Source: Cristatella mucedo
Taxonomy: Eukaryota; Bryozoa; Phylactolaemata; Cristatellidae
NCBI GenBank assembly: GCA_009760855.2
Contig: WPIO01000063.1
Coordinates: 413,001 to 477,000, forward strand
Length of the DNA stretch: 64,000 bases
Reading direction: 5' to 3'
Part shown: positions 8,101 through 40,287 of the stretch, piece by piece
Layout: every line of letters starts with the position of its first letter
Numbering within the stretch: the first letter of the stretch is position 1
Notes under the pieces: model-generated
The model's database searches: none
What the model was told of the DNA's origin: nothing
The model's input: only the letters and a program-made list of their open reading frames with translations
Position numbers and translations under genes: made by a program

Positions 8101-9021
8101 ACCTTTAAGCCGCGTTAAAGAAATCCTTTCTGTGCGTCTTAGGTATCACAATTAAAGCTCTAAGCCAAGTTAGACTGTATGACTCGGTAGACTGCAAGTA
8201 TTGGGCGGAGGCCCTACGAGGCCTCAAACTGCCTACGAAACCGCAGGCTCTCGAGTAGTGGAGGAGCGGACAGTGACTCTCAGATGGCAACTCGGCAGCC
8301 CGGCAAAAATCCATGCATTGGCGATCTCTGCGGGGACATCCGTCTCATGCGAGCTACCGCCAGCGGATGGGTGGATTTTGGAACGAAAAATGACTCGACA
8401 GTGCACACAAATGCATGCATAGGATATAAGGACTGCCGAAGGAGTACAGAGGAGGGAGATGGCTAGATTTATCGCCGAAGGCAGCCTTCTAGTGTGCATA
8501 GACCGGACTCGGTTGGCAAGGGTTTCTGAATATAGCGCCCGGTGCTGGAGCCAGGAGACTAGTTGCTCGGTCAATCTACCCAGCCCAACGACAGGTCGTT
8601 CTGAGGGCTCTAACGATACCTTATAGAAAATTGCAATATCTTGCGATAGTCAAATGCTAGAAGCATGTAGAACAAGAGTAACTAATCGTGCCTCTCGTAA
8701 TTACTTTAATCACTCTAGCTTACTTCAACTGCTACCGTTTTATACTTTTCCCATACATACAAATAACCCTCTAGGCTTTCAACGAACTTGGAAATGCATT
8801 GGCACGTTTAATAAATAACACCGTACAGTTACCTCTATCAGATGAAATCAAAAAGAGATCATGAATCGGATAGATAGAAACCTGTAGTGGTATAGACCTT
8901 GCCATCATCACCAGTCCTAAACTATGCAGTAAACGTCAGAAAACGAGCATTCCTAGAATGTGGCTAACCATCATGCTAGTGTGGCGGCCGTTCATAGCTA
9001 ATGCCAGCATTTTCGAAGCTA

Positions 9022-9086
9022 TATAAACTACAACGGACTAGTTTCCTTTCACCAGCTAAACTGTTACGTCGTCACAAGCGGTGAGT
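9022..9086 (+). promoter_or_regulatory. TATA box, start region and 5'UTR exon of peptide gene copy 1
   Basis: A TATATAAA box (TATAAA 9022-9027) lies about 50 bases upstream of a strong donor, CG|GTGAGT at 9081. Transcription would start near 9050, giving a 5' untranslated exon of about 30 bases ending at 9080. The next exon begins at 9905 after TTTCAG, four bases before the start codon. The layout repeats in all three units. The start site is inferred. Confidence 0.5.
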
Positions 9087-9227
9087 AGTGACAATCGGCA
9101 AGGTTTTTCAAGCTGCCGAGTCGAGAATCCTTGTTGTGAACGTGAAGCCGTTCTGTGGGGTCACACTAGAGTCCAGCTTTTGCTACTGGGTTACAACTTC
9201 CAGATAGTAAGCGAGTGGGTTACTTAG

Positions 9228-9491
9228 ATGGATTTTATAATCCTGACCGACCAAGCTGCCTTCTCGTTACAGGTTGCTAGTGCTTTCAGTTGCCTGTTAC
9301 TTGTGTGTAGCTTATGTGAAGCTTCTTCTTCTGATCGCTGCACGCATGTTGGTTGTGTTGACGGTGTAAGAAAAAAACAAAATCTCTCATTTGACATTAG
9401 GCTGATTCACCTGCCCGGCACTTATTTTAAAAACTTCAAAATATGCATAATACCTAAAAGAGATCCATTGAAAGTTCGCCCTCTCTTTTGA
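9228..9491 (+). other. 87-codon open frame inside intron 1, doubtful
   Basis: The frame starts Met-Asp-Phe and has a hydrophobic run (SAFSCLLLVCSLCEA, about residues 18-32) that resembles a secretion signal, followed by two cysteines and a basic C-terminus. It recurs at 21775 and 34638. The unit 1 copy differs by a three-base, frame-preserving indel; the unit 2 copy has an extra base near its end that changes the C-terminus. It sits wholly within intron 1 of the peptide gene. I do not recognise it and it may be chance. Confidence 0.15.
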
Positions 9492-9794
9492 TAGATCATT
9501 CTAATCGGTAGATTCGTGTGTACGTAGATTTTGGCAGTTCGTGCAATGCGAATGCACACTGAACGCTTACATACTTATCAGTACAGTTTAGTTTTCAAAG
9601 TGATATTCCAACACGTCACACTGGCGGCATAGCTTGCAAGTCTACGATTTTAACCGGGGAAATGTGCAATGCCAAAGAAATCTCCTCGTTGAGCAATTAA
9701 AACAGAAAGTAAAATAATCTATACATTAGGCAGGCAACATTCTAATTGAATCAATTTGCTTCTTTAGCTTTTGAAAAATGATCTTAACCTTCCC

Positions 9795-9882
9795 TTTACA
9801 GCAAATGTAAAGTGCGTAGAAGGAGATTGAGTTCTCCGAAGGCGCTTTATCGAGTGCATTATTACTATTATGATTATTAACA
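9795..9882 (+). repeat. LINE tail inside intron 1
   Basis: The sequence TTTACAGCAAATGTAAAG, then GAGTTCTCCGAAGGCGCTTTA, then an ATT-rich run is the LINE tail in sense orientation. It ends about 20 bases before the splice acceptor at 9904. The same insertion is at 22341-22425 and 35200-35287, so it predates the tandem duplication. Confidence 0.8.
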
Positions 9883-9908
9883 AGCCGTTTTCCTATAATT
9901 TCAGAAAT

Positions 9909-10458
9909 ATGAATTCTCTCACTGTCGCTGTTGTGGCTGTGCTGCTGTTCAATCTGGCCATGTCTGCGGTAAGTTCAATGCTAAACGCTTCGAATCGAAT
10001 GTATTTCTTACGGCACGTGACTGGCTCTGATATACGTCAGTGTACAGGGAAACTTGCAAATAAAGGTTCCCCGTGCAAGGATTTGAAGCTATTAAATTTA
10101 CTTGCTGCTGTGTATATTGAGCTTGGCACAATATATGGCCAAAGAATATCGACCAAAGGCTCTATTGCAGAGTGTTGAGGAAAATGCTGACTTGAGCCCT
10201 GAGCTGAAAGTTGAAATGGAAGACGCTTTCAGAGGCAAGTAGTGAGAGAGCAGGGCCAACTCAGCATGCTATAGCTGCGATGAGATTGACTGTTTAGCTC
10301 GGCTTAGGCGATTATAACTGTCTTGCGATTGCGACCTTTCAGAATACGACGAAGCAACGAGGGGATTTTTCAAAAACATAGCAAAACTCGTATTCAAGGG
10401 AGCTAAATATGCTCTGAAGTACGGTCCACAAGTTGTCGAAGCTATCGTCGGGAAATAA
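9909..10458 (+). CDS. Secreted cationic amphipathic peptide precursor, copy 1
   Basis: Three coding exons give a 79-residue precursor: 9909-9968, 10171-10234 and 10343-10458 (stop TAA 10456-10458). Exon 1 is exactly a signal peptide of 20 residues (MNSLTVAVVAV.. to ..LAMSA) and ends at GCG|GTAAGT. Exon 2 and the start of exon 3 encode a 28-residue propeptide with ten acidic and three basic residues, ending EATR. The mature part would be 31 residues starting GFFK, with six lysines and one glutamate, a Gly-Pro hinge near residue 21, and a C-terminal Gly-Lys that could give an amidated end. Intron 3 is GC-AG (AGAG|GCAAGT). AATAAA lies at 10487-10492, and an unresolved base at 10469. The architecture is that of helical antimicrobial or membrane-active peptides; I do not recognise a named family, so activity is inference. 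Confidence 0.75.
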
Positions 10459-10492
10459 ACGGCTGCGANAATGCAACGCGTAACAAAATAAA

Positions 10493-11400
10493 CGCTATTC
10501 AAAAACATTATCAACCTTGCTTACAATGTTTACCATGCGGAGACAGTGCGACAACAGAATTCTAGCCTTTATGAAGTAAGCAGCTAATCTACTTTCCTTG
10601 TGCAATTATTTTGTATGGTGTCAAAATATTATTCTACGGGAGTTTCATTTCTAATCAGATATTTGGAGCGATTACATTTTCTACGAATACCAAATACTTG
10701 AGGAGCCACACAAAGTCTTTTCTAAGTCGGTGATAGTCGATGACTCATTTCAAGACTCATTTCGAAAGAATTTCTTTGAGTTTAAGTGGCTCCATTCTAC
10801 TGAAGCTCCTTAGTGCGAGCAACGGCATGCGGATATGAAACGAGTCTAGTAGCATTCCTACCTGGATATGCAGCATCTACCAGTGCTGGTGTACAATAAG
10901 GAATACAATATCAACTAATTCCGCCTCTCCTTTTCTCTCAGCTCCTTCATGCGTGTCATTTCGAACGTGCTCGTATAATACATTTGCAAGGCTAAATAAA
11001 CAACCGTGCCCTGAATATTATCCTAATGGCGTTTGGCTTTTGAAGCCGTTGTTGCTCTCGACAAAAAGTAACTACGTGAAGTGTGTTATTTCTTGGAAAC
11101 ATCATCCCTGTAAACGGTTCTTGTCTCTCAACTCACAACAAATTATTTCTTGCATGTTGAGAATTCGACAACCTCTGTTCAAATGTCCGATGACTATGCT
11201 TAGTCGGCGCAAGCTACGAGCCCAGATGAAATCTGCTTTCGTGCTTAGTATGCCCAGTCAAAAGTCGCAGACCTCGGATATGCGAAAGTGCGAAATTTTC
11301 ATTTAGCTTGAAGGGGTTCATTGTAATTTGGCGACACCTCTCAGCCAGGCTGGAATTTGAAAAGCAAAAAATACTCTCAATTCATTAAAATAACTACAGC
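10493..11400 (+). other. Region downstream of peptide gene; unsupported frame and strong acceptor
   Basis: The region lies between the peptide gene's poly(A) signal and the LINE stack. A 117-codon open frame at 10953-11306 recurs in each unit, but its differences in unit 3 are mostly amino-acid changing, so coding is not supported. A long pyrimidine tract ending CTCTCAG at 10941 resembles a splice acceptor. A downstream or alternative last exon is possible but undefined. Confidence 0.3.
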
Positions 11401-11410
11401 AAATTTAAAT

Positions 11411-12390
11411 TCATTTATACATCATCCTAAGAGACCCGAATCTCCATTCGGGCGCTTCAAATATCCCACAAGGCTAGAGCCAATCGTCCATCCCATACCT
11501 TCACCTTAAAAGTAGGAATGACTGATAAGTTTATAGAGGATCCACATAGAACGCGATATCTATCTAGGCAATTTACAGCATCAATTGCTATAACAATACA
11601 TTTGTATAACATCCTCAGAGAACTGAATTTTCTTCTAGGCACTTTGAAGACGCTGCGTGAAAAACGCTCGCAAATGTATGGTGGTAACGCTACCAAATGA
11701 ACGGTGGTAACATCCGCAAGCAGCAGGCATAGTGGAACCAGGTACACGCACAGGTCGAATAACAAACACCCACCAAATGCTGTAACAAAAGGGTATATTT
11801 TAAGCTTCTTTTGAAATGTCGTCATATCAGAGGACGCTGTGACGTGCGTCGGTAGTGAATTTCAAGCTTTGGCAGATAGGAACTAAAGGCACGGTGTCTA
11901 ACGGTTTTAAGGTACGTACGAGGTATGGCTAAACGATTCGATTCAGAACGTCGCATTGCACGATTCATCGCCTGGCGGGGGAGTAGTTCTGATATATAGG
12001 CCGGAGCCAGAGAATGAAGAGACCTAACAGTAGGTCACGGAACCTTGAAGTCGATGCGCTGCTTGATTGGGAGCAAGTGCAGGTCGGCGAAAAGTGGTGT
12101 GATGTGGACACTGCGACGCTAACGACAGACATGCCTAGCAGCAGAGTTGTGCACTAACCGTAAGCTTCTGATTGCACAGGCTGATAGACCAGCAAGCAGT
12201 GAGTTACAAAAGTCGCGATGAGACGTCATAAATACACGGGCCAATGTAGATCCCGTATCATTGTCTAAACAAGCCCACATTTTAGCAAATTTATGCAGCT
12301 GAAAGTAGGCAGACGTGACTGTGAAGCTGACGCGGTCATGTATTGAAAAGTCACTTTGGAACAGGACACCTAGATTACGTGTCAATTAAA
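11411..12390 (-). mobile_element. LINE (family B) 3' part, two overlapping tails
   Basis: The minus strand carries 'RNLGVLFQSDFSIHDRV..SAYFQLHKFAKMWACL' and 'SHRDFCNSLLAGLSACAIRSLRLVHNSAARHVCR' (12385-12119), the region after the palm of a non-LTR polymerase. It then has a broken 'LPIKQRIDFKV', 'APAYISELL' segment and a C-terminal 'DMTTFQKKLKIYPFVTAF' (near 11825). LINE tails in antisense occur at 11587-11650 and 11411-11462, suggesting one truncated copy inserted next to another. There are many frame breaks. Confidence 0.8.
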
Positions 12391-12589
12391 TGGGATATAT
12401 ACTGGAGGAGCCGATGTTGGGCGTCGGGCTTTGCCATTTCTAAATAACACTTGGTTTGCCATTAACTAGTATGTTGTTTTTATCGTCGTTCAAATTAAGA
12501 AATTTTGCTGCCATCCACGTGCCGACGTCATCAATACTTAGCGCTAGGGTACATACAGAATTCGACGTGCACGGCGACTGAAAAGGAAA

Positions 12590-15500
12590 AACCCCACGGA
12601 TCTGTCAAATGCTGTAAAAGGTAGGTGCGTGTTGGATTTTCTTTTAAATATCACCAAGACTAGAATGTCGTGACTTCAGTCGGAAATGATTTCCAGGCTT
12701 TGGAAGGATACGAAGTAAAGTCGCGGTCTCCGAAGGATTTAAGATTCGTTAGAAGTATACCTCAACGGTTTATTTCAGAAAAGCTGGTAGCAAGATACCT
12801 AGCCTGCAGGGAGAGTAGTTTTAGTAGGTAGACCGGATCCAGAGAACGAAGAGACCTAACAGTAATGTCACGAAAACTTGAAGTCGACATGCTGATGACC
12901 GCGAGACAGTCCAGGTAAGCTAGAAGTGGCCTGATCTTAAGCAATGTTGCCTAGTTGAAACTAGGGAAACTTTACTGTGGAGCTGCTGTGGTTGTTTAGC
13001 TGAAGGTCACTTTGAAACAATCACCACAGAACCTCAGATTTCGTGCAGATGCAACAGGAGATATGCTGGAAGAGCAGATTTGAGCTTTGAATTATCCAAT
13101 TTCCGTCTCACACTTGATTCGTCCATTCCTAGGAAGGTAGTATCATCGTTATTTAATTGGGGAAGGTAGTTTTATCGTTATTAATTGGTGAAAGTTTGCT
13201 GCCGTCCACGGGCAGATGTCGATTACATGCAGGAAGGTTGTTGAGAGAGACTGTCGTGCCTCAGGGATGGGAGATATCGAAGCGAACGTACAACTGAGTT
13301 TGACCTGCATTGAACTGAAGGCCCCGATTGTGTTTGGCGATTACCTTGGCGAGAGGGAGAGTGTAAACTGTCAAGAAAAGCAGATCAAGCGCAGAAAGGA
13401 ATGTACGCATTACTGTAGTGGTTCCTCAAATAATCATTTTCAGTTCCCATCAATACTTAGGAGTTTCCATTTGACTGCAGTGCAGTCGTACCCAGGGCGA
13501 GATAGAAGGCGCTCGAGAAGGTCCTAATGATCAGTTGCATCAAACGCGCCCGAAAGATGGAGCAACACGAGAAGATAGACTGTACCTAAGTCTGCTTTTC
13601 TGAGAAGATCGTTACACACCCTAAGTAATGGTGACTTTGTTGAGTGATTAGCTCAGACCCCCGAAAACAACGTGCTTGCTAGGTCTTTTTTCAACACAAA
13701 GAGTTAGGCCGGTCTGTCTTAGCTCTTTCCAGTATCTTTGATGGAAACGCTTGAAGAGAGACGGGCGGAAGGTGCTTAGGTGTAATAGGTCTAGTATTGC
13801 TTTCTTGGTTAGTGGCCTAACCACAGATTTTTGAAAGAAGCAGGGACGTTATTCAGGTCAATGACATAGTTCTTATGTTCGTTAATCATTTCAGCAGTAG
13901 AACAATTCATCGGGCAGCAGGTGCAATCGGGGCAGGGTCAAAAGACCTAGTAGTCTTCTTTGATTGGAAGATGAATTTCAGGATGAATTCACTCGTGTCC
14001 TAATAGAACGTACTCATTGACGAGCTGCTCAGAATTGATGAACAGGAGTTTTGTGGGGTTGTTAGTGAGGGACAGGAGTCCGGAGGGAATGCTGCTACCT
14101 TAGGGATTGACTCTCGGATATCGTTTATTTTGTTAAGAAAACGAAGTAGAGAACCGACAAGCTAAGATCGCTCGGCCAGAAGCTAACCTTAAAGGGGCGG
14201 TTTATCGTAAACATAATCAGTTTTGGTGGCGAAATCAGCGATTCAACGTTTATTTATAGCAGCTGGAATGAGCTTACTTATGATTAATTGATACGATCTA
14301 AAGTAGTCTTCGAATGCATGTCAACGGACAAGTAGTCCAGATGTTTTTTTATGCTTTATTGTGCTTATTCTTTGTAGCCCTAGCTATTTTAACGTCGGTG
14401 GTAAACTACAAACCTTCTGGGAGAGGGCACACAGTGCGCTTAGTAGTACGTGCAAACTCGTCGATCGCGTCAACTAGTGTGGCGTTGTACCATTCTACCA
14501 ACGAGGTCCATTCGGAAGGGAGATGGCGCAGTGAAGGCGAAGACTGTATTCTCGTCGGGACAGCTTCGATGTGAAGAGTCTTCAGGTATTAGCGAACAGT
14601 ACGTGACTTCACATGCAGAGGAAGGCACACTGTAGACTGGCGGAGATCTGCATGTAATAAGATGAGCAGAATTTAGGAAAAGTACGCGACTTCAGGGTAC
14701 AGTTATAAATAACAAGTGGTCGAGTGTGTGACCTTGGATTTGAGTCAGGTCTCGAACACGAGCCTCAAGAGAAGGCGAAGCAGACAGTGCACAAAATTAG
14801 GCGTTTAAGCCAACAGATACGTCATCAAAATGAATTTTAAAATCAACTATGACGGGGAAAGATCGAGCACAGAATCGAAATGAAATGGGAGAATTGTGAT
14901 ATCAAGAAGTTTGCGATATCTGGGCGCCATAGATCAGTGCCACTGTTGACAGCTTGTTCTCGGATGAATGCCAAACAAGAGATTCGAAAGACTGCTTTGC
15001 AGTGACTTTAAATGGCTTAAGCTTGAGGGGTGAACATGCAACAACGGCAACTCCGCTGTAAGGCTTGATTGATCGAGAAGTGAGACAGAAGAAAATCCCT
15101 GCATTTGTTTTTGTCAGATATATTTGGGCTGTTAGTCGATTTCAGCCAGGTCTCGGTTAAGGCGAACACATGTAGGCCGTCAGTAGTTGTCATGTATTAT
15201 TTGGGATTTATTTCGCACTGAGGGAGAATTTCAGAGAAAAGCATTACGCTGGGCCTACGCGATCGTAGCAGGTCTGTGGACAACTAAATTAGAGTGATTA
15301 GCCGCCGCAGTTTCGCGAGATCTCGTAGGGCGGCTCGAACCGATGCTGTTCATAGCAAACATGTGCGGTTTCCAGCGAAGCCTGATTCGGACGCCAATGT
15401 GGATCAAGGGCGGCCGCCTTTTGTTAATCATCAATTCATGGACTCTAGCGCCAGCGATTGCATCTGGGAATGCATTTGAACTGCCATAGCTCAACAGTAA

Positions 15501-16060
15501 TATGCAGGCTCGATAATAACCAACAGGCTGATTACAAATTGTCGGCGAAAATAATGCCGCAGCCAGAGTGACTGGGTAGGTCGGGCCGCTTCGAGACTAG
15601 GCCCTAAGCAGTAAGCCGCTGGATAGCCATAGGCATGCAGTTTCCCTTTCGTTACGGTAAAACTGCGGTCGAATATTTTCTAAACTGGTTGCAGATGTAT
15701 CTGTTGTTTTAAGTGCTTTTTGCAAGAACTTGGATTCATGGAAGATGTTTCGAAACGGACAAGAAACTCTACTTGCTTCAGTTGTCGGGCAATGAGAATA
15801 CCCTGACCTTGGTCGGGGTAAACATTTAATCCCCTGAGCAGAACTACTGCGGCAATCGATCTCTCTAAAAAAAATTTCAGTCTGCCTTTTGAGCTATCCG
15901 TTCCTCGGAAACACTGCTGCTTAGGCTCTACACTGGTCTCTACAAACGTGATGATTAGGTGAGAGCTTATCAGCTGATACTCGAAGATCAATTAGCAACA
16001 CTTGATGGCCTTGATTACCATAACCTTAGACAACTCCATCCATACCTCTAGTTATTACTA
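12590..16060 (-). mobile_element. LINE (family B) long decayed copy: endonuclease, palm remnant, C-terminus
   Basis: Read on the minus strand from 16060 down: an unrecognised 5' part, then the endonuclease near 15200-14890 ('FALTETWLK', 'SFESLVWHSSENKLSTVALIYGAQ'). Next is a degraded stretch and a palm remnant near 13370-13280 (a 'YTLPLAKVIAKHN'-like stretch in which the YADD motif is lost), then a C-terminus near 12900-12600. In unit 2 the endonuclease is one open frame of 96 codons (27787-27497). In unit 1 one extra T in a T run near 15112 breaks it. The element is inactive in all units. Confidence 0.75.
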
Positions 16061-16179
16061 TTGCAGTTCTGAGGTGAGAGCCGTAAAGGCTCTTCTGTCG
16101 CTATACAAAAGAGGCTGTCCAATCAGCAAGTATTTCTCAAGGTAAAAAGGATGCTACGTTCACCAGAGATGTAGTGTAA

Positions 16180-16830
16180 TAACAATAATAATAATGCATT
16201 TGATATAGCGCCCGCAAAGAACTCAATCTCTTTCTAGACACTTTACATTTGCTGCTGACGAAGCACGAACGAGTGTTTACTTGTAGCAAGTTTAATAAGC
16301 AAGAGGAGGAACATGGTTACTGGTGATGTGCACAGGGTCAGCATGCAAGTTTGGTTAGCGATAGCATGCACAGCATCAGCTCACACAAGCTGACCATGAA
16401 CGAATCACAGAGACCCACTAAATACTGGGATAAATAGATGCGTTTTTAGCTAAATGAGCTACATTTAAATGAGGACGTCAGCAGATTTCCGACAAAAGTC
16501 GGGAGTGAGTTCCTGGCAGTGGAAGCAATCAAACTAAAGGCACGGTCTCCAAAGGATTTGAGATTTGTACGAGGTGTGGGTAAACAGTTAGATTCCAAAA
16601 ATGGCTGTTACGATGCTTAGGCTACTGGGGGGGGGGAGGGGAGCAAATCAGAAAGATAGGCTGGAGCCAAAGAATGAACTGGGCCTTAAAGTGAGTGACA
16701 AAAGCTTAAAGTTGATGGGTTGCTAGACTGGGAGCCAGTGCAGGTCGGTGAGAGGCGGTGTGACGTGACAATTGGGATGCTCACGACAGACAAGCCTAGA
16801 CGCAGAGTTTTGCACCAGCTGTAAGCGCCT
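16180..16830 (-). mobile_element. LINE 3' fragment (antisense)
   Basis: An AAT run and tail (TATAGCGCCCGCAAAGAACTC) at 16180-16252 are followed by 3' sequence. At 16770-16810 the minus-strand equivalent is 'VQNSASRLVCRE', from the post-palm region of the polymerase. A run of nine or more G lies near 16627. An insert with a GGGGTGGG/CCCACCCC hairpin begins at about 16855. Confidence 0.7.
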
Positions 16831-16854
16831 GAGTAACAGGTCGGTAAAGAGGAA

Positions 16855-18130
16855 ATTCAGGAGGGGTGGGGAGTTATGCTCCCACCCCTATAGGAGTTAT
16901 GGCCGTCAAAGCACATTTATAGATATCTCTCGAATACTAATTGATAGACCGGCATGCAAATTTGCACAAACAAAAAGGGCAACATGATCTTTTGATGCGA
17001 CCACAGTGCTACTTCAGACAACCTGTAAAAGTCGAGGAAAAACTTTCGGTTCGGTATATCCCTTTGATATAACCTAAACAATTCACCCCTATGTATTATA
17101 GGAATATGGCAAACCTCTAAAAAGATGCAGAACACTTTTGTCTACCCTCGGATAAATTTAAAACGTAAATTAAACATTTTGTGACGTTTACAATAAAGAA
17201 CATTAATCAGGAAAGAGTCGATCTCGTGACATGAAAGGACAGCAGCACTACATGCACTTGACATACAACCAAATTTTCGAAATAGAGGGGATGAAAAAGT
17301 CAACCAGAGCATATATTCTGAATTTCAAGTCGATGTGGCCATACATGACCAAGCTGTAGCATCTCAAAGGTGCAAAGCTTAAACGTTCACGAAGAACAGT
17401 CAAAGTTGCCAGCTTATAGTTCAACCAGCTGGCAGCACATAATTTAATGCCAAAAACCGCACAACCATCATAAATTGTTGCCAATACTGTCAACATATCT
17501 TTCTGGAAAATAATACATTTTACACAATCGCACAAGCACACATTTCAAGTTGATCGGATCACTACTATCGGCGATATGACATACGCATGGCAGCGAAGGT
17601 AGGCACGATAGCTCTCATACTGCCAGCAGTCAAACCACGCCGGTAGTCAAACCACCCGGGCGTCCGACCCGCGTTCGCAAATACAAATCTCAAGCTATAG
17701 ACGGCATTGATGAAAACTCAAAATCTCCTCAATTTCCCTTAAACAGAATTGAATTAACATTTGAAGACTGATTCCAAGTGAACGACTGGCTAGCTCCATC
17801 AAAGTCATCATGCAGACCGGCCGCCGGACAGCGTTGCCTCGTGGATTATGGTTGCAAGAAGAACCGGATCAACAGTCCCATTATTCAGTAGGCCCAGTGG
17901 TGGACTAGTTAGGGCAACCCTGGCAGCAGTAAATTCTTAATACATTATCCCTAATGACTGTCTACTAGCCGAACAGTGATCACTTCCGGTTTCTAAGCCG
18001 ATAAAAACATATCAATGTACATACGTTTATGCCAAGTAAATCAGGACTGGGCCTTGAAATGACTTGTACAGCCGGTTTCTATGGGCTAGACGGGAAGCAG
18101 TGGAGGGACTAAGCCCCGGCCGATAGGGTT
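16855..18130. other. Repeat-like region of unknown nature
   Basis: A 97-codon minus-strand frame (17541-17248) has a diverged counterpart at 52693-52415. Most differences between the two change amino acids and include a nine-base gap, so I do not support coding. Homology with the diverged copy ends at about 18131, where different sequence begins. No known domain is visible. It may be the 5' part of a LINE. Confidence 0.4.
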
Positions 18131-18921: not shown

Positions 18922-18922
18922 A

Positions 18923-25185: not shown

Positions 25186-28100
25186 AACCCCACGGATCTG
25201 TCAAATGCTGTAAAAGGTAGGTGCGTGTTGGATTTTCTTTTAAATATCACCAAGACTAGAATGTCGTGACTTCAGTCGGAAATGATTTCCAGGCTTTGGA
25301 AGGATACGAAGTAAAGTCGCGGTCTCCGAAGGATTTAAGATTCGTTAGAAGTATACCTCAACGGTTTATTTCAGAAAAGCTGGTAGCAAGATACCTAGCC
25401 TGCAGGGAGAGTAGTTTTAGTAGGTAGACCGGATCCAGAGAACGAAGAGACCTAACAGTAATGTCACGAAAACTTGAAGTCGACATGCTGATGACCGCGA
25501 GACAGTCCAGGTAAGCTAGAAGTGGCCTGATCTTAAGCAATGTTGCCTAGTTGAAACTAGGGAAACTTTACTGTGGAGCTGCTGTGGTTGTTTAGCTGAA
25601 GGTCACTTTGAAACAATCACCACAGAACCTCAGATTTCGTGCAGATGCAACAGGAGATATGCTGGAAGAGCAGATTTGAGCTTTGAATTATCCAATTTCC
25701 GTCTCACACTTGATTCGTCCATTCCTAGGAAGGTAGTATCATCGTTATTTAATTGGGGAAGGTAGTTTTATCGTTATTAATTGGTGAAAGTTTGCTGCCG
25801 TCCACGGGCAGATGTCGATTACATGCAGGAAGGTTGTTGAGAGAGACTGTCGTGCCTCAGGGATGGGAGATATCGAAGCGAACGTACAACTGAGTTTGAC
25901 CTGCATTGAACTGAAGGCCCCGATTGTGTTTGGCGATTACCTTGGCGAGAGGGAGAGTGTAAACTGTCAAGAAAAGCAGATCAAGCGCAGAAAGGAATGT
26001 ACGCATTACTGTAGTGGTTCCTCAAATAATCATTTTCAGTTCCCATCAATACTTAGGAGTTTCCATTTGACTGCAGTGCAGTCGTACCCAGGGCGAGATA
26101 GAAGGCGCTCGAGAAGGTCCTAATGATCAGTTGCATCAAACGCGCCCGAAAGATGGAGCAACACGAGAAGATAGACTGTACCTAAGTCTGCTTTTCTGAG
26201 AAGATCGTTACACACCCTAAGTAATGGTGACTTTGTTGAGTGATTAGCTCAGACCCCCGAAAACAACGTGCTTGCTAGGTCTTTTTTCAACACAAAGAGT
26301 TAGGCCGGTCTGTCTTAGCTCTTTCCAGTATCTTTGATGGAAACGCTTGAAGAGAGACGGGCGGAAGGTGCTTAGGTGTAATAGGTCTAGTATTGCTTTC
26401 TTGGTTAGTGGCCTAACCACAGATTTTTGAAAGAAGCAGGGACGTTATTCAGGTCAATGACATAGTTCTTATGTTCGTTAATCATTTCAGCAGTAGAACA
26501 ATTCATCGGGCAGCAGGTGCAATCGGGGCAGGGTCAAAAGACCTAGTAGTCTTCTTTGATTGGAAGATGAATTTCAGGATGAATTCACTCGTGTCCTAAT
26601 AGAACGTACTCATTGACGAGCTGCTCAGAATTGATGAACAGGAGTTTTGTGGGGTTGTTAGTGAGGGACAGGAGTCCGGAGGGAATGCTGCTACCTTAGG
26701 GATTGACTCTCGGATATCGTTTATTTTGTTAAGAAAACGAAGTAGAGAACCGACAAGCTAAGATCGCTCGGCCAGAAGCTAACCTTAAAGGGGCGGTTTA
26801 TCGTAAACATAATCAGTTTTGGTGGCGAAATCAGCGATTCAACGTTTATTTATAGCAGCTGGAATGAGCTTACTTATGATTAATTGATACGATCTAAAGT
26901 AGTCTTCGAATGCATGTCAACGGACAAGTAGTCCAGATGTTTTTTATGCTTTATTGTGCTTATTCTTTGTAGCCCTAGCTATTTTAACGTCGGTGGTAAA
27001 CTACAAACCTTCTGGGAGAGGGCACACAGTGCGCTTAGTAGTACGTGCAAACTCGTCGATCGCGTCAACTAGTGTGGCGTTGTACCATTCTACCAACGAG
27101 GTCCATTCGGAAGGGAGATGGCGCAGTGAAGGCGAAGACTGTATTCTCGTCGGGACAGCTTCGATGTGAAGAGTCTTCAGGTATTAGCGAACAGTACGTG
27201 ACTTCACATGCAGAGGAAGGCACACTGTAGACTGGCGGAGATCTGCATGTAATAAGATGAGCAGAATTTAGGAAAAGTACGCGACTTCAGGGTACAGTTA
27301 TAAATAACAAGTGGTCGAGTGTGTGACCTTGGATTTGAGTCAGGTCTCGAACACGAGCCTCAAGAGAAGGCGAAGCAGACAGTGCACAAAATTAGGCGTT
27401 TAAGCCAACAGATACGTCATCAAAATGAATTTTAAAATCAACTATGACGGGGAAAGATCGAGCACAGAATCGAAATGAAATGGGAGAATTGTGATATCAA
27501 GAAGTTTGCGATATCTGGGCGCCATAGATCAGTGCCACTGTTGACAGCTTGTTCTCGGATGAATGCCAAACAAGAGATTCGAAAGACTGCTTTGCAGTGA
27601 CTTTAAATGGCTTAAGCTTGAGGGGTGAACATGCAACAACGGCAACTCCGCTGTAAGGCTTGATTGATCGAGAAGTGAGACAGAAGAAAATCCCTGCATT
27701 TGTTTTGTCAGATATATTTGGGCTGTTAGTCGATTTCAGCCAGGTCTCGGTTAAGGCGAACACATGTAGGCCGTCAGTAGTTGTCATGTATTATTTGGGA
27801 TTTATTTCGCACTGAGGGAGAATTTCAGAGAAAAGCATTACGCTGGGCCTACGCGATCGTAGCAGGTCTGTGGACAACTAAATTAGAGTGATTAGCCGCC
27901 GCAGTTTCGCGAGATCTCGTAGGGCGGCTCGAACCGATGCTGTTCATAGCAAACATGTGCGGTTTCCAGCGAAGCCTGATTCGGACGCCAATGTGGATCA
28001 AGGGCGGCCGCCTTTTGTTAATCATCAATTCATGGACTCTAGCGCCAGCGATTGCATCTGGGAATGCATTTGAACTGCCATAGCTCAACAGTAATATGCA

Positions 28101-28660
28101 GGCTCGATAATAACCAACAGGCTGATTACAAATTGTCGGCGAAAATAATGCCGCAGGCAGAGTGACTGGGTAGGTCGGGCCGCTTCGAGACTAGGCCCTA
28201 AGCAGTAAGCCGCTGGATAGCCATAGGCATGCAGTTTCCCTTTCGTTACGGTAAAACTGCGGTCGAATATTTTCTAAACTGGTTGCAGATGTATCTGTTG
28301 TTTTAAGTGCTTTTTGCAAGAACTTGGATTCATGGAAGATGTTTCGAAACGGACAAGAAACTCTACTTGCTTCAGTTGTCGGGCGATGAGAATACCCTGA
28401 CCTTGGTCGGGGTAAACATTTTATCCCCTGAGCAGAACTACTGCGGCAATCGATCTCTCTAAAAAAAAATTCAGTCTGCCTTTTGAGCTATCCGTTCCTC
28501 GGAAACACTGCTGCTTAGGCTCTACACTGGTCTCTACAAACGTGATGATTAGGTGAGAGCTTATCAGCTGATACTCGAAGATCAATTAGCAACACTTGAT
28601 GGCCTTGATTACCATAACCTTAGACAACTCCATCCATACCTCTAGTTATTACTATTGCAG
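25186..28660 (-). mobile_element. LINE (family B) long decayed copy, unit 2
   Basis: Equivalent of 12590-16060. The endonuclease remnant is the clearest in the window: an open minus-strand frame at 27787-27497 with 'LHVFALTETWLK', 'SGVAVVACSPLKLKPFKV' and 'SFESLVWHSSENKLSTVALIYGAQ'. The downstream palm is degraded. Confidence 0.8.
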
Positions 28661-28778
28661 TTCTGAGGTGAGAGCCGTAAAGGCTCTTCTGTCGCTATAC
28701 AAAAGAGGCTGTCCAATCAGCAAGTATTTCTCAAGGTAAAAAGGATGCTACGTTCACCAGAGATGTAGTGTAATAACA

Positions 28779-29428
28779 ATAATAATAATGCATTTGATAT
28801 AGCGCCCGCAAAGAACTCAATCTCTTTCTAGACACTTTACATTTGCTGCTGACGAAGCACGAACGAGTGTTTACTTGTAGCAAGTTTAATAAGCAAGAGG
28901 AGGAACATGGTTACTGGTGATGTGCACAGGGTCAGCATGCAAGTTTGGTTAGCGATAGCATGCACAGCATCAGCTCACACAAGCTGACCATGAACGAATC
29001 ACAGAGACCCACTAAATACTGGGATAAATAGATGCGTTTTTAGCTAAATGAGCTACATTTAAATGAGGACGTCAGCAGATTTCCGACAAAAGTCGGGAGT
29101 GAGTTCCTGGCAGTGGAAGCAATCAAACTAAAGGCACGGTCTCCAAAGGATTTGAGATTTGTACGAGGTGTGGGTAAACAGTTAGATTCCAAAAATGGCT
29201 GTTACGATGCTTAGGCTACTGGGGGGGGGGGGAGGGGAGCAAATCAGAAAGATAGGCTGGAGCCAAAGAATGAACTGGGCCTTAAAGTGAGTGACAAAAG
29301 CTTAAAGTTGATGGGTTGCTAGACTGGGAGCCAGTGCAGGTCGGTGAGAGGCGGTGTGACGTGACAATTGGGATGCTCACGACAGACAAGCCTAGACGCA
29401 GAGTTTTGCACCAGCTGTAAGCGCCTGA
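28779..29428 (-). mobile_element. LINE 3' fragment, unit 2 copy
   Basis: Equivalent of 16180-16830; the G run near 29221 is longer here (about twelve G). Confidence 0.7.
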
Positions 29429-31154
29429 GTAACAGGTCGGTAAAGAGGAAATTCAGGAGGGGTGGGGAGTTATGCTCCCACCCCTATAGGAGTTATGGCC
29501 GTCAAAGCACATTTATAGATATCTCTCGAATACTAATTGATAGACCGGCATGCAAATTTGCACAAACAAAAAGGGCAACATGATCTTTTGATGCGACCAC
29601 AGTGCTACTTCAGACAACCTGTAAAAGTCGAGGAAAAACTTTCGGTTCGGTATATCCCTTTGATATAACCTAAACAATTCACCCCTATGTATTATAGGAA
29701 TATGGCAAACCTCTAAAAAGATGCAGAACACTTTTGTCTACCCTCGGATAAATTTAAAACGTAAATTAAACATTTTGTGACGTTTACAATAAAGAACATT
29801 AATCAGGAAAGAGTCGATCTCGTGACATGAAAGGACAGCAGCACTACATGCACTTGACATACAACCAAATTTTCGAAATAGAGGGGATGAAAAAGTCAAC
29901 CAGAGCATATATTCTGAATTTCAAGTCGATGTGGCCATACATGACCAAGCTGTAGCATCTCAAAGGTGCAAAGCTTAAACGTTCACGAAGAACAGTCAAA
30001 GTTGCCAGCTTATAGTTCAACCAGCTGGCAGCACATAATTTAATGCCAAAAACCGCACAACCATCATAAATTGTTGCCAATACTGTCAACATATCTTTCT
30101 GGAAAATAATACATTTTACACAATCGCACAAGCACACATTTCAAGTTGATCGGATCACTACTATCGGCGATATGACATACGCATGGCAGCGAAGGTAGGC
30201 ACGATAGCTCTCATACTGCCAGCAGTCAAACCACGCCGGTAGTCAAACCACCCGGGCGTCCGACCCGCGTTCGCAAATACAAATCTCAAGCTATAGACGG
30301 CATTGATGAAAACTCAAAATCTCCTCAATTTCCCTTAAACAGAATTGAATTAACATTTGAAGACTGATTCCAAGTGAACGACTGGCTAGCTCCATCAAAG
30401 TCATCATGCAGACCGGCCGCCGGACAGCGTTGCCTCGTGGATTATGGTTGCAAGAAGAACCGGATCAACAGTCCCATTATTCAGTAGGCCCAGTGGTGGA
30501 CTAGTTAGGGCAACCCTGGCAGCAGTAAATTCTTAATACATTATCCCTAATGACTGTCTACTAGCCGAACAGTGATCACTTCCGGTTTCTAAGCCGATAA
30601 AAACATATCAATGTACATACGTTTATGCCAAGTAAATCAGGACTGGGCCTTGAAATGACTTGTACAGCCGGTTTCTATGGGCTAGACGGGAAGCAGTGGA
30701 GGGACTAAGCCCCGGCCGATAGGGTTTAAGCTTTGATGGTCTTTTTTTTTTTACCTCGTTCGGTTGGCACAGCAGAGAGCCAGCCGAGAAACAACACCAA
30801 AAGTTCATCATGCGACGCACGGAGCCGATGGAAGCACAGCTCCGTGCGTCCCACAGCTCAGCTTCCCTCTCGACTTTCCTTGATGCGAGGCTGTCTTTCC
30901 TGTCCCTGGGTTGACCCCGATGATTCATCTAACAGGAACATAACTGAGAGCCAGCCGACCCTGATGGTGAATCCACCATCTGTTCATCAGAGGGTTACCG
31001 GCCTGTATCCATGCAACATCACAGGCATACCACAGCTGTGCACCAGCCCCTCTCAGCGATGCTCCTAACTGCTGTTCCCCAGAGGCTTATCAGGGGAGCC
31101 TGCACACAATCGAACTGTAACCGCCTAGAAGTTCGTCCCCCGGCTCCCTACCAG

Positions 31155-31782
31155 TGGGCGGTGTAGTGCAGCTCTGCAGGACGGTTAAAACACAAGCGGC
31201 CACAACTGGGTGCCAAAAGCAACAGTTTATTGTGGGCCTGTTAGTAGTGGTTACACGCCGGCACAAGTCCTTTACGCGGCATGCACCGTACCGACGGAGT
31301 TAACTGAGTGAGAACTCCCAAAGCCAGACTACAATAAGCCACCACACTCCTGCGTCGCTAGTAGTGGTCCCGACCCCGAAGGCGGACTGCTACAGCACCT
31401 CAAGATATGAGCAGCTAACTGAGTAGCCGACAAAACACAATCGCCCAGTCGACGTGGCACTTAGCTGTTCGTCGCCGTAGGTTCGACTCTCGTGCTCTCG
31501 AGGCGTAGTCTCGGATCGACTACTGAACCTTCATCCCTGATCTCTGCCAGTCTTCTCGTTTATACTCTCTCTCTCTCTCTGTCTCTGTCTCTGTCTCTCT
31601 GTCTCTCTCTCTCTCTCTCTCTGCCCTCTTAACCTTGAGCGTAGCTGCTATTTTTGTCGGACCCTAGCTATCCGTGTCCGTCTTCGGCCTATTCGCTTCT
31701 GCCTGTAATTTATTAGATGGCTCCTCCGCCAGCTTGCCTTCCTTTCGCTCTTTGTCTAACGGAGTACAGTCGTCGGTCTACA
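31155..31782 (-). mobile_element. Gypsy LTR, near complete
   Basis: On the minus strand the element runs from TGTAGACCGACG at 31782 to ACCGCCCA at 31155, about 628 bases with TG and CA ends. It contains a TATAAA (minus strand, near 31560) beside a CT/GA microsatellite, and an AATAAA further downstream. Immediately 3' is TGGTAGGGAGCCGG, a primer-binding-like site. The boundaries are inferred from these signals, not from a second LTR. Confidence 0.55.
31566..31623. repeat. CT microsatellite inside LTR
   Basis: A run of CT with interspersed GTCT units, present only in unit 2 because the corresponding LTR part is missing from unit 1 and unit 3. Confidence 0.9.
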
Positions 31783-31784
31783 AC

Positions 31785-32221
31785 AAATATTAAAACGCTC
31801 AACCAGATCGTCTGTTTGAGGATGATACGGGGGATGTATGGAGCCGTTCAACAGAGAGAAGGCGGCACACGAGTTCCATCATTCGAGAAAGGAAATTAGC
31901 ACTGCCATCTGAGAGGATTTGCTCGGGTGCGCCATGCCAGCATACAATATCCTCAACGAACACGTGTGCACACGTGGAGGCCGTTTGGTCGGGAATAGCG
32001 GGAGCCTCTGGCCACTTGGTGAAACTGTCGCTCATCACTAACAGATAGCGGCCCCCTTCGCTAGAGACAGGCATCTGCATGATGTCCATGGCGACTCTCT
32101 GCCACGGTCGTTCTACGGGGATGCTTTGGAGGGGCACCCGAGCCCTCTCCTTTGGAGGCTTTCTAGTGTGGCATCCCCCGTTTTTTCTGACACTCATCGT
32201 TGCTGTAAAGTAGTAGTACAA
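31785..32221 (-). pseudogene. Ty3/gypsy integrase fragment, unit 2 copy
   Basis: Same as 18923-19358, with the same frameshift between 'HTSPV' and the catalytic-Glu segment. It abuts the LTR start at 31782 with no purine tract between them. Confidence 0.85.
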
Positions 32222-32602
32222 CTATCAATGTCGCACATGAACCTCAACGTAAACCAGGAGACAGTGACTGCGACGAACTTGAAGATAAGCCTACAGTAGG
32301 CGTGCATCATTGTAATACTTTCCTCATATCATGATTTTTTACTTAATTATGATGAAACTATGAGATTTCCCGGTACTACGGCAGGTGCCCTACCTGGGTC
32401 AGAGGGCACCCAGTGCCCTTGTTCAAAGCAAATTACTTCCGCGATTTGTTACTGGTATATGCTAGACCTCAATGTATGTGGATGCAATATGTTGATATTA
32501 CAATCTTGAACCATAAATGCCATTGAATGATCTGCGAATTTATTTTTCACGGCAATGTTTAATCTTTTTATAACCCCGATATCCTACTTGGACGATTGAG
32601 AA

Positions 32603-33588
32603 CAAGGATCGTTCTAGCAGTCGAGATATGGAAGGGTGCTAGGCAGGGTTCACATCTTACTTGTCCGATCATCTCAATCCTTTTCTTGCGGGGTAAGGTC
32701 TCATCCACCAGACCTGTCACCTGTGAAGTACCACAAGGGTCTCTCTTTAGTCCTTTGCAATTCTACGTTTATACTCAACCACTGCAGAAAGGGATTCATG
32801 ATTATGCTGTGCATACTCAGTTGTATATGTCATAATAACCATCGGAATCTGCGACGGCGACTGATAAGCTGAATGCTTGCCTTGCAGACATTCAATCCTG
32901 AAAGTCGGTAATGTTCCTTAAACTACACAAGGATGAAAAAGAAACTGCTACTCACATAAAACCCCAACTGCCTGGCTAGATTAGAAGGCTTTGCGATTTT
33001 AATGGGGGGTGCTGTTGAGGCGCCGTCGCCGTTGGCTCGAAATTTAGGCGTCGTCTTCGAGCTAGCCACTCCTCACATCCCTATTTAAGATTAGGAACAG
33101 TCTTTCACGGTGGCTTGCAAAAAATTTAACTAGCTCATTCGACCGTGCTTATTTTGCAGCAAATGTAAAATACTTAGGAAGAGGTTTAGTTCTCTGAGGG
33201 CGCTATATAACATGTGTTGTTATTATTATTGTTTCCGTCCCGGCTAGATTATTGAAATTCTCTTTTGGCTGGGCTACCGAAAAAATCCACTATGCCATTG
33301 CAGCTGGTGATGAACATGGATGCATGGTTAGTTTAAAAATCAAGAGATTTGACCATGTGTCTCTATTGCTGAAAGAGAGCTTGATTGGTTGCTGGCTTAC
33401 GAACGGATGCAGTGCAAAGTTCTATCCGCTGACCCCGATGGCTCGGCTCGTCCTGGCTCCATCATACCTAGCTGAACTGAAGCAACAGCTTCAGGCTCCT
33501 TCCGCCCATGCACTCAGATCCTGTACGGACAATGAATTAGCTGTTCCATTCCTCCTACTAAATTCCTTTGGCGACTGAAGCCTTTAGT
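32603..33588 (+). mobile_element. LINE (family A) decayed copy, unit 2
   Basis: Equivalent of 19740-20725, including the nested tail (33159-33235) and the abrupt end at the unit junction. Confidence 0.8.
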
Positions 33589-34431
33589 TTGACTCGGTAG
33601 CCTGCGAGCATTGGGCGGAGGCCCTACGAGGCCTCAAACTGCCTACGAAACCGCAGGCTCTCGAGTAGTGGAGGAGCGGACAGTGACTCTCGGACGGCAA
33701 CTCGGCAGCCCGGCAAAAATCCATGCATTGGCGATCTCTGCGGGGACATCCGTCTCATGCGAGCTACCGCCAGCGGATGGGTGGATTTTGGAACGAAAAA
33801 TGACTCGACAGTGCACACAAATGCATGCATAGGATATAAGGACTGCCGAAGGAGTACAGAGGAGGGAGATGGCTAGATTTATCGCCGAAGGCAGCCTTCT
33901 AGTGTGCATAGACCGGACTCGGTTGGCAAGGGTTTCTGAATATAGCGCCCGGTGCTGGAGCCAGGAGACTAGTTGCTCGGTCAATCTACCCAGCCCAACG
34001 ACAGGTCGTTCTGAGGGCTCTAACGATACCTTATAGAAAATTGCAATATCTTGCGATAGTCAAATGCTAGAAGCATGTAGAACAAGAGTAACTAATCGTG
34101 CCTCTCGTAATTACTTTAATCACTCTAGCTTACTTCAACTGCTACCGTTTTATACTTTTCCCATACATACAAATAACCCTCTAGGCTTTCAACGAACTTG
34201 GAAATGCATTGGCACGTTTAATAAATAACACCGTACAGTTACCTCTATCAGATGAAATCAAAAAGAGATCATGAATCAGATAGATAGAAACCTGTAGTGG
34301 TATAGACCTTGCCATCATCACCAGTCCTAAACTATGCAGTAAACGTCAGAAAACGAGCATTCCTAGAATGTGGCTAACCATCATGCTAGTGTGGCGGCCG
34401 TTCATAGCTAATGCCAGCATTTTCGAAGCTA

Positions 34432-34496
34432 TATAAACTACAACGGACTAGTTTCCTTTCACCAGCTAAACTGTTACGTCGTCACAAGCGGTGAGT
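34432..34496 (+). promoter_or_regulatory. TATA box and 5'UTR exon of peptide gene copy 3
   Basis: TATAAA at 34432-34437, inferred start near 34460, exon end 34490, donor GTGAGT. Identical to copies 1 and 2. Confidence 0.5.
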
Positions 34497-35315
34497 AGTG
34501 ACAATCGGCAAGGTTTTTCAAGCTGCCGAGTCGAGAATCCTTGTTGTGAACGTGAAGCCGTTCTGTGGGGTCACACTAGAGTCCAGCTTTTGCTACTGGG
34601 TTACAACTTCCAGATAGTAAGCGAGTGGGTTACTTAGATGGATTTTATAATCCTGACCGACCAAGCTGCCTTCTCGTTACAGGTTGCTAGTGCTTTCAGT
34701 TGCCTGTTACTTGTGTGTAGCTTATGTGAAGCTTCTTCTTCTGATCGCTGCACGCATGTTGGTTGTGTTGACGGTGTAAGAAAACAAAATCTCTCATTTG
34801 ACATTAGGCTGATTCACCTGCCCGGCACTTATTTTAAAAACTTCAAAATATGCATAATACCTAAAAGAGATCCATTGAAAGTTCGCCCTCTCTTTTGATA
34901 GATCATTCTAATCGGTAGATTCGTGTGTACGTAGATTTTGGCAGTTCGTGCAATGCGAATGCACACTGAACGCTTACATACTTATCAGTACAGTTTAGTT
35001 TTCAAAGTGATATTCCAACACGTCACACTGGCGGCATAGCTTGCAAGTCTACGATTTTAACCGGGGAAATGTGCAATGCCAAAGAAATCTCCTCGTTGAG
35101 CAATTAAAACAGAAAGTAAAATAATCTATACATTAGGCAGGCAACATTCTAATTGAATCAATTTGCTTCTTTAGCTTTTGAAAAATGATCTTAACCTTCC
35201 CTTTACAGCAAATGTAAAGTGCGTAGAAGGAGATTGAGTTCTCCGAAGGCGCTTTATCGAGTGCATTATTACTATTATGATTATTAACAAGCCGTTTTCC
35301 TATAATTTCAGAAAT

Positions 35316-35867
35316 ATGAATTCTCTCACTGTCGCTGTTGTGGCTGTGCTGCTGTTCAATCTGGCCATGTCTGCGGTAAGTTCAATGCTAAACGCTTCGA
35401 ATCGAATGTATTTCTTACGGCACGATGACTGGCTCTGATATACGTCAGTGTACAGGGAAACTTGCAAATAAAGGTTCCCCGTGCAAGGATTTGAAGCTAT
35501 TAAATTTACTTGCTGCTGTGTATATTGAGCTTGGCACAATATATGGCCAAAGAATATCGACCAAAGGCTCTATTGCAGAGTGTTGAGGAAAATGCTGACT
35601 TGAGCCCTGAGCTGAAAGTTGAAATGGAAGACGCTTTCAGAGGCAAGTAGTGTGAGAGAGCAGGCCAACTCAGCATGCTATAGCTGCGATGAGATTGACT
35701 GTTTAGCTCGGCTTAGGCGATTATAACTGTCTTGCGATTGCGACCTTTCAGAATACGACGAAGCAACGAGGGGATTTTTCAAAAACATAGCAAAACTCGT
35801 ATTCAAGGGAGCTAAATATGCTCTGAAGTACGGTCCACAAGTTGTCGAAGCTATCGTCGGGAAATAA
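35316..35867 (+). CDS. Secreted cationic amphipathic peptide precursor, copy 3
   Basis: Coding exons are 35316-35375, 35579-35642 and 35752-35867 (stop TAA 35865-35867). The acceptor before the first coding exon is TTTCAG at 35306-35311. The protein is identical to copy 1: 20-residue signal, 28-residue acidic propeptide ending EATR, 31-residue lysine-rich helical peptide starting GFFK and ending in Gly-Lys. Intron lengths are 203 and 109 bases, and the second of these uses a GC donor. The 3' untranslated region keeps the 50 bases missing from copy 1, with AATAAA at 35943-35948. Nothing interrupts the gene, so this is the best candidate for a working copy. The unit downstream of it is deleted, but the gene itself is not affected. 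Confidence 0.78.
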
Positions 35868-36859
35868 ACGGCTGCGATGAAAAGCGATATCGCCTCGGAG
35901 AAATGTTACTGCATGGCTTCGCGTCAATGCAACGCGTAACAAAATAAACGCTATTCAAAAACATTATCAACCTTGCTTACAATGTTTACCATGCGGAGAC
36001 AGTGCGACAACAGAATTCTAGCCTTTATGAAGTAAGCAGCTAATCTACTTTCCTTGTGCAATTATTTTGTATGGTGTCAAAATATTATTCTACGGGAGTT
36101 TCATTTCTAATCAGATATTTGGAGCGATTACATTTTCTACGAATACCAAATACTTGAGGAGCCACACAAAGTCTTTTCTAAGTCGGTGATAGTCGATGAC
36201 TCATTTCAAGACTCATTTCGAAAGAATTTCTTTGAGTTTAAGTGGCTCCATTCTACTGAAGCTCCTTAGTGCGAGCAACGGCATGCGGATATGAAACGAG
36301 TCTAGTAGCATTCCTACCTGGATATGCAGCATCTACCAGTGCTGGTGTACAATAAGGAATACAATATCAACTAATTCCGCCTCTCCTTTTCTCTCAGCTC
36401 CTTCATGCGTGTCATTTCGAACGTGCTCGTATAATACATTTGCAAGGCTAAATAAACAACCGTGCCCTGAATATTATCCTAATGGCGTTTGGCTTTTGAA
36501 GCCGTTGTTGCCCTCGACAAAAAGTAACTACGTGAAGTGTGTTATTTCTAGGAAACATCATCCCTGTAAACGGTTCTTGTCTCTCAACTCACAACAAATT
36601 ATTTCTTGCATGTTGAGAATTCGACAACCTCTGTTCAAATGTCCAATGACTATGCTTAGTCGGTGCAAGCTACGAGCCCAGATGAAATCTGCTTTCGTGC
36701 TTTGTATGCCCAGTCAAAAGTCGCAGACCTCGGATATGCGAAAGTGCGAAATTTTCATTTAGCTTGAAGGGGTTCATTGTAATTTGGCGACACCTCTCAG
36801 CCAGGCTGGAATTTGAAAAGCAAAAAATACTCTCAATTCATTAAAATAACTACAGCAAA

Positions 36860-37647
36860 TTTAAATTCATTTATACATCATCCTAAGAGACCCGAATCTC
36901 CATTCGGGCGCTTCAAATATCCCACAAGGCTAGAGCCAATCGTCCATCCCATACCTACACCTTAAAAGTAGGAATGACTGATAAGTTTATAGAGGATCCA
37001 CATAGAACGCGATATCTATCTAGGCAATTTACAGCATCAATTGTTATAACAATACATTTGTATAACATCCTCAGAGAACTGAATTTTCTTCTAGGCACTT
37101 TGAAGACGCTGCGTGAAAAACGCTCGCAAATGTATGGTGGTAACGCTACCAAATGAACGGTGGTAACATCCGCAAGCAGCAGGCATAGTGGAACCAGGTA
37201 CACGCACAGGTCGAATAACAAACACCCACTAAATGCTGTAACAAAAGGGTGTATTTTAAGCTTCTTTAGAAATGTCGTCATATCAGAGGACGCTGTGATG
37301 TGCGTTGGTAGTGAATTTCAAGCTTTGGCAGATAGGAACTAAAGGCACGGTGTCTGACGGTTTTAAGGTACGTACGAGGTATGGCTAAACGATTCGATTC
37401 AGAACGTCGCATTGCACGATTCATCGCCTGGCGGGGGAGTAGTTCTGATATATAGGCCGGAGCCAGAGAATGAAGAGACCTAACAGTAGGTCACGGAACC
37501 TTGAAGTCGATGCGCTGCTTGATTGGGAGCAAGTGCAGGTCGGCGAAAAGTGGTGTGATGTGGACACTGCGACGCTAACGACAGACATGCCTAGCAGCAG
37601 AGTTGTGCACTAACCATAAGCTTCTGATTGCGCAGGCTGATAGACCA
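36860..37647 (-). mobile_element. LINE (family B) 3' part, unit 3, truncated
   Basis: Equivalent of 11411-12191, with more substitutions than between units 1 and 2. It ends at the internal deletion breakpoint at 37647. Confidence 0.75.
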
Positions 37648-38036
37648 CCTGTATGGACAATGAATTAGCTGTTCCATTCCTCCTACTGAATTCCTTTGGC
37701 GACTAAAGCCTTTAGTCTGCAGGTCCTAGACTGTGGAACTCACTTCCACAATTAGTAAGCAACGACATCTATTCTCCTGCTGCCGACTATGGCTCATCGT
37801 TCTGAGCCGTCCTGATCTGCTACTTCTATGCTGCTCACTAACCGCACTGATCTCGTGACTCAGCAATGTATTTCAATTTCTCTTCGTTACGAGAAATGAA
37901 GTTTTTTGGCAAGCAAATGCGTACCAAAGCTGCCTCGGCTTTGAATGCACAGTTAAAATCTTCCAGGCATAACAACTACCTAGGCATTGCGGCTTTGTGG
38001 GTTACACAGGTGGTTAGGGGAGATGCATTTCATTAG
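37648..38036 (+). mobile_element. LINE (family A) 3' end
   Basis: This holds the 3' part of the element cut at the tandem junction: 'LWNSLPQL' (37735-37755), a 'CYFYAAH'-type segment, and the 3' region ending GGAGATGCATTTCATTA. Short indels break the frame. Confidence 0.75.

Positions 38037-40158: not shown

Positions 40159-40287
<129 letters not shown>

Follow-up and report, generated by a model that had tools for sequence, protein, structure and literature searches.

A tandemly amplified gene for a predicted secreted precursor with an acidic propeptide and a cationic amphipathic peptide in Cristatella mucedo

Three described peptide systems are closest to the gene considered here, which lies in a stretch of 64,000 nucleotides from the bryozoan Cristatella mucedo (contig WPIO01000063.1, positions 413,001 to 477,000 of the forward strand; this whole stretch is referred to as the window) and is present there in three tandem copies. 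Insect cecropins possess a cationic amphipathic N-terminal helix, a Gly-Pro, a hydrophobic C-terminal part, and a Gly available for amidation, with a published precursor length of 58–79 aa. Each of 30 butterfly cecropins is presumed to have a Trp at position 1–2 of its mature part (PMC8427292), some mosquito and black-fly cecropins are without it, and the published listing of cecropins also includes those of a tunicate and a nematode. The simple precursors of spider linear peptides comprise a signal, an acidic propeptide terminated by an XXXR motif with Glu, and one cationic linear peptide (PMC8290080). The ascidian helical antimicrobial peptides (Ci-MAM, Ci-PAP, and others) derive from short secreted precursors with a cationic amphipathic helix and an anionic helical region; the latter is C-terminal in 17 of 22 Ciona candidates, and cleavage of the precursors is presumed to take place beside acidic residues (PMC7387483).

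The precursor predicted here has the four cecropin features named above, and its 79 residues fall within the published range. It differs from cecropins in having no Pfam match, in a mature part that begins with GFF and carries no Trp at position 1–2, in a YGPQ sequence where cecropins have an AGPA hinge, in an acidic pro-region of 28 residues compared with only a few in cecropins, and in three coding exons, whereas the Anopheles cecropin genes have two exons (PMC11554196). Pairwise comparison with 11 cecropins (from PMC8427292 and PMC10304470) yielded shuffle p values of 0.001–0.585. The likeness in letters is thus suggestive at most, and the peptide appears cecropin-like in design but not significantly in sequence; homology, judged from Pfam, the profile score given below, the Trp, the hinge, the pro-region, and the gene structure, is not shown. 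Moricins were considered as well and set aside, as the four tested gave shuffle p values of 0.193–0.667. The processing plan seems closest to that of the spider linear peptides, since the acidic propeptide ends in EATR, an XXXR motif with Glu according to the motif classes of PMC8290080. With the ascidian peptides the precursor shares its general make-up and its fit to the same screen; however, the anionic region here comes first and ends in Arg.

Gene structure and predicted precursor

That the locus contains a genuine spliced gene, encoding a secreted precursor with an acidic pro-region and a cationic amphipathic helix, is well supported. The four exons of copy 1 lie exactly, to the base, where the first-pass annotation had placed them (Table 1). 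Their donors read GCG/GTGAGT for intron 1, GCG/GTAAGT for intron 2, and AG/GCAAGT for intron 3, which makes the last a GC-AG intron, a feature absent from the first-pass annotation, and CAG acceptors are found at exons 2, 3, and 4. An alternative donor for intron 3, GTAGTG, located 4 bases downstream, was rejected; as read from the sequence rather than computed, it would place exon 4 in another frame in which the helix is lost. The proposal that the exons separate signal, propeptide, and mature region holds only roughly: the intron after residue 20 does set the signal-like part apart, but exon 4 carries the end of the propeptide in addition to the mature part. Intron 1 also contains a hydrophobic, Cys-containing open frame between a possible acceptor and a possible donor, which may be an unused exon, an alternative exon, or a product of chance.

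Once joined, the coding exons yield the same precursor of 79 residues in copies 1 and 3. Residues 1–20 are signal-like, with a hydrophobic core whose mean hydropathy reaches up to 3.08 in a segment of 11 residues; AMSAS and then acidic sequence come after this core. The position of signal cleavage is an assumed one. The acidic propeptide (residues 21–48; SVEENADLSPELKVEMEDAFREYDEATR) has a charge of -7 and ends in EATR, and the mature part (residues 49–79) has a charge of +5, contains the Gly-Pro, and terminates in Gly-Lys. Computation therefore agrees with the first-pass annotation on both charges, the Gly-Pro, the Gly-Lys end, and the hydrophobic N-terminus. On the Eisenberg scale, 0.09% of 100,000 residue shuffles reach the helical moment calculated for the mature part, and 0.12% reach that of its first 20 residues. 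AlphaFold2 without an alignment returned a single helix over residues 4–36 of the 38-residue exon-4 product (mean pLDDT 89.3), although single-sequence models of short helices constitute weak evidence.

A published screen for helical antimicrobial precursors (PMC7387483) looks for a signal peptide on a precursor of 50–100 residues, an 18-residue cationic window with hydrophobicity 0–0.6, moment 0.1–1.0, charge 3–10, and no Cys, and an anionic helical region with charge -10 to -3, and adds filters for transmembrane segments, aggregation, and localisation (TMHMM, AGGRESCAN, and DeepLoc). On the length, signal, and window criteria, with the HeliQuest rules re-implemented for both kinds of window, the precursor falls within the length range with its signal-like N-terminus and contains 12 consecutive cationic windows (residues 45–73) as well as 14 consecutive anionic ones (residues 21–51).

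The peptide family had gone unrecognised in the first-pass annotation, and the database searches likewise matched no described family. Among 5.8 billion proteins, a set that includes named animal proteins from uniref and nr, the precursor had no match at E<=1 and one word-sharing candidate; by our estimate a word-based search of this kind would miss relatives below ~50% identity, and a diverged family may therefore exist. One search of PDB sequences gave 9 weak matches (best E 0.17) and another a single weak match (E 0.16), all of them taken as chance, and Pfam-A gave 0 families at E<=10 for either the precursor or the mature part, in a search in which the HMMER filters drop most weak matches. 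Neither the 5 pattern matches in IMG/VR nor the 71 in GTDB genomes were confirmed, and little was to be expected from these collections since they hold viral and prokaryotic contigs. Six pieces of the mature part, of 7–8 letters each, and a ten-letter piece are absent from a literature corpus of 5.39 million papers.

The tandem array and its surroundings

The gene is contained in three units starting at 8177, 20724, and 33587, whose near-identity, claimed at first pass, is confirmed at 99.1–99.9% per aligned block. In blocks longer than 800 bp, units 1 and 2 are 99.35–99.89% identical, units 2 and 3 99.43%, and units 1 and 3 99.13–99.39%. One correction concerns unit 3, whose gene is complete but which is itself partial. 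The outer flanks, before 8177 and after 37647, are not common to the other units; the stretch upstream of copy 2 is the same as that upstream of copy 3, and the stretch downstream of copy 1 is the same as that downstream of copy 2, i.e., the copies are joined by the same spacer. Three genes and two spacers in such an arrangement are the product expected of unequal crossing-over. The spacer of unit 2 contains an additional 264 nt with a CT-rich array, missing from unit 1, which explains most of the difference in length between these two units.

The claim that each unit carries the same four-exon gene stands for copy 3, in which exons 1–4 are unchanged, and for exons 1–3 of copy 2; exon 4 of copy 2, however, is frameshifted by a C>T exchange and an extra A within a T/A run, and the protein ends after 62 residues. 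Copy 2 may represent either a real pseudogene or a consensus or assembly error. No further, diverged copy of the gene was detected in the window by tblastn beyond matches at chance level.

The spacer has an older relative downstream, which is broken by an L2-type insertion and in which no copy of the peptide gene was found. Fragments of a Gypsy-type integrase with one and the same translation are present in the spacers of units 1 and 2. Outside the array, the first exons of a TIMP/netrin-module gene score 25.5 bits with Pfam TIMP (cut-off 23.1); the remainder of this gene was not found with certainty, and a protein search with its product had 114 candidates, of which none was a relative at E<=10. 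Near the start of the window lies a fragment of an L2-type reverse transcriptase. It shares 91% identity, along 85% of its length, with a protein from a JGI metagenome contig of 1152 bases and, among the matches listed (120 of 156), 39–57% identity with named fish proteins; it has no confirmed match in GTDB or IMG/VR.

Table 1. Coordinates of the array, the peptide gene, and neighbouring features in the window
Feature	Position	Strand	Remarks
Tandem unit 1	8177..20723	+	gene copy 1 and spacer; 12,547 bp
Tandem unit 2	20724..33586	+	gene copy 2 and spacer; 12,863 bp
Tandem unit 3, partial	33587..37647	+	contains just gene copy 3 with its 3' flank; no homology to the other units past 37647
TATA box TATATAA, copy 1	9020..9026	+	30 nt before exon 1; also present at 21567 (copy 2) and 34430 (copy 3)
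Exon 1, 5' UTR, copy 1	9050..9080	+	GTGAGT donor; transcription start inferred
Open frame in intron 1, copy 1	9228..9488	+	
Exon 2, copy 1	9905..9968	+	start codon 9909; 20 signal-like residues; then phase 0 intron
Exon 3, copy 1	10171..10234	+	first 21 residues of acidic propeptide; then GC-AG intron, phase 1
Exon 4, copy 1	10343..10458	+	last 7 propeptide residues (end EATR), 31-residue cationic region, stop
Single N, copy 1 3' UTR	10469..10469	.	collapsed gap of the assembly, where copies 2 and 3 contain 48 nt
AATAAA polyadenylation signal, copy 1	10487..10492	+	29 nt past stop (48 nt replaced by N)
Exon 1, copy 2	21597..21627	+	
Exon 2, copy 2	22450..22513	+	
Exon 3, copy 2	22717..22780	+	
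Exon 4, copy 2	22889..23005	+	frameshifted; C>T (22917) and additional A (22918), early stop codon 22951-22953
Exon 1, copy 3	34460..34490	+	
Exon 2, copy 3	35312..35375	+	
Exon 3, copy 3	35579..35642	+	
Exon 4, copy 3	35752..35867	+	identical to copy 1
AATAAA, copies 2 and 3	at 23081 and 35943	+	76 nt past stop
Part of unit spacer with older relative	12110..18132		
Older spacer relative	46782..53292		~85% identical
L2-type insertion in older relative	~47902..48361		
Extra 264 nt of unit 2 spacer	31516..31779		CT-rich array
Gypsy-type integrase fragment, unit 1	18939..19358	-	Pfam rve, E 9.6e-10
Gypsy-type integrase fragment, unit 2	31799..32221	-	
L2-type reverse transcriptase fragment	2167..2844	-	
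AT dinucleotide array	40162..40286		125 bases, 98% matches
TIMP/netrin-module gene, first exons	41629..41758, 41850..41938, 41985 on (within 41629..42050)	+	introns ~91 and 46 bp

Weighing the readings of the locus

We favour, with somewhat better than even confidence, the reading of the locus as a host-defence gene that belongs to the linear cationic alpha-helical type, is restricted to its lineage, and was recently amplified in tandem. The fit to the published screen agrees with the role in host defence suggested at first pass, while the role itself is one that we infer, the design being common to cytolytic venom peptides. Several observations weigh against this reading. At the level of the gene, one of the three copies is broken, the second acceptor has a weak tract with 6 pyrimidines of 12, and the 599 nt upstream contain no kappa-B or AP-1 sites and two GATA sites compared with 1.65 in shuffles, so that immune promoter motifs are not above background. 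At the level of the peptide, the result is weaker on the Fauchere-Pliska scale, where 1633 of 50,000 shuffles (3.3%) reach the helical moment calculated for the best window of 18 residues, the helix predicted from the single sequence shows no bend at the Gly-Pro, and the cecropin profile score of 1.8 bits, equalled by 401 of 5000 shuffles, does not single the gene out. Moreover, no homologue was found, and the copies are too alike to reveal evolutionary constraint.

That the open frames arose by chance and form no gene is very improbable. Unit 1, the two flanks, and 6000 second-order Markov sequences of equal length were scanned for secreted precursors encoded by three exons with consensus splice sites. 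Of the 6000, 99 gave a model when charge and helix were disregarded, but none did under the full criteria, by which exon 3 had to be acidic and exon 4 cationic and amphipathic; in the real DNA, the full criteria recovered the gene a single time in unit 1 and gave no model in either flank. These criteria were chosen after the gene was known, and the acceptor threshold was eased from 7 to 6 pyrimidines of 12 because the stricter value excluded the observed gene itself; the scan is hence a sanity check and does not provide a p-value. Independently of it, the TATA box, donors, acceptors, AATAAA, and amphipathicity are in agreement, and in the unique part of the window none of 18,849 other stop-free stretches of 31 codons matches the mature part on all three counts of charge, hydrophobicity, and helical moment. 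A further doubt concerns copy number alone and is compatible with any functional reading: the three copies could be an artefact in which haplotypes or mis-joined contigs multiplied a single gene. The N that stands in place of 48 nt in copy 1 implies at least one collapsed gap in the assembly here, and the T/A homopolymer run in which copy 2 differs is prone to consensus error. Nevertheless, the junctions of the units are consistent, with common spacers between copies and unshared outer flanks, and the private variants lie in different parts of the copies, in the 5' part of copy 1 (8179–8868) and in the 3' part of copy 3, which, together with the extra 264 nt of unit 2, argues against a single gene merely assembled three times and makes such an artefact unlikely.

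Two alternatives concern function. Tandem copies are common among venom genes, and spider genomes have large introns and are AT-rich. A gene of the same type could serve a venom or defensive gland, supplying a cytolytic linear peptide that is freed by an XXXR-specific protease, as in some spiders. The order of signal, acidic propeptide, EATR, and single cationic peptide corresponds to the spider 'simple precursor' plan (PMC8290080); yet the host genome looks unlike that of a spider, considering the short introns of the neighbouring TIMP-type gene and the 38–50% GC of the window, and no sequence match emerged among the 5.8 billion proteins, where spider peptides are expected through uniref and nr, their presence in the set being unchecked. 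We regard this origin as distinctly improbable. Alternatively, the product may be a secreted amphipathic helical peptide with another task, such as signalling, lipid carriage, or a structural or reproductive secretion, rather than the killing of cells through their membranes. Secretion and amphipathicity alone are no proof of antimicrobial action, no known family places the precursor in any class, and the precursor could remain uncleaved; however, mirror-image charges of pro-region and mature part, along with an end ready for amidation, are typical of membrane-active peptides, which leaves this explanation with a rather low probability.

Proposed mechanism and significance

For the favoured reading, that of a host-defence peptide, we propose the following course of events. 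A short spliced mRNA would be made from the TATA promoter, and the signal peptide (residues ~1–20) would direct the precursor out of the cell, with the acidic pro-region neutralising the cationic part until cleavage. An endoprotease may then cut after Arg48 in EATR, and a carboxypeptidase may take off the final Lys, whereupon the exposed Gly could be converted into a C-terminal amide, leaving 29 residues with a side-chain charge of +4. The helix would bind and permeabilise anionic microbial membranes, the amphipathic part presumably lying on the membrane surface and the hydrophobic part beyond the Gly-Pro entering it, a mode of action proposed for cecropins. The three gene copies may stem from recent unequal crossing-over, and their number would raise the dose.

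A more far-reaching version, which we put forward tentatively and hold to be doubtful as a whole, is that the locus represents a family of amidated defence peptides, cecropin-like with a hinge and not described before, in an animal lineage from which no cecropins are known. Its single-Arg cut would be of the EXXR type, as in spider venom precursors, and both the peptide design and the processing signal would be independent inventions, with tandem amplification still ongoing and one copy decaying.

If the gene is expressed and its product active, an orphan family would be added to the helical host-defence peptides. The locus would then also offer a compact case of very recent copy-number expansion, with aligned blocks less than 1% apart and one copy frameshifted, and would allow a test of whether charge-masking by a propeptide and EXXR processing arise repeatedly in unrelated animals.

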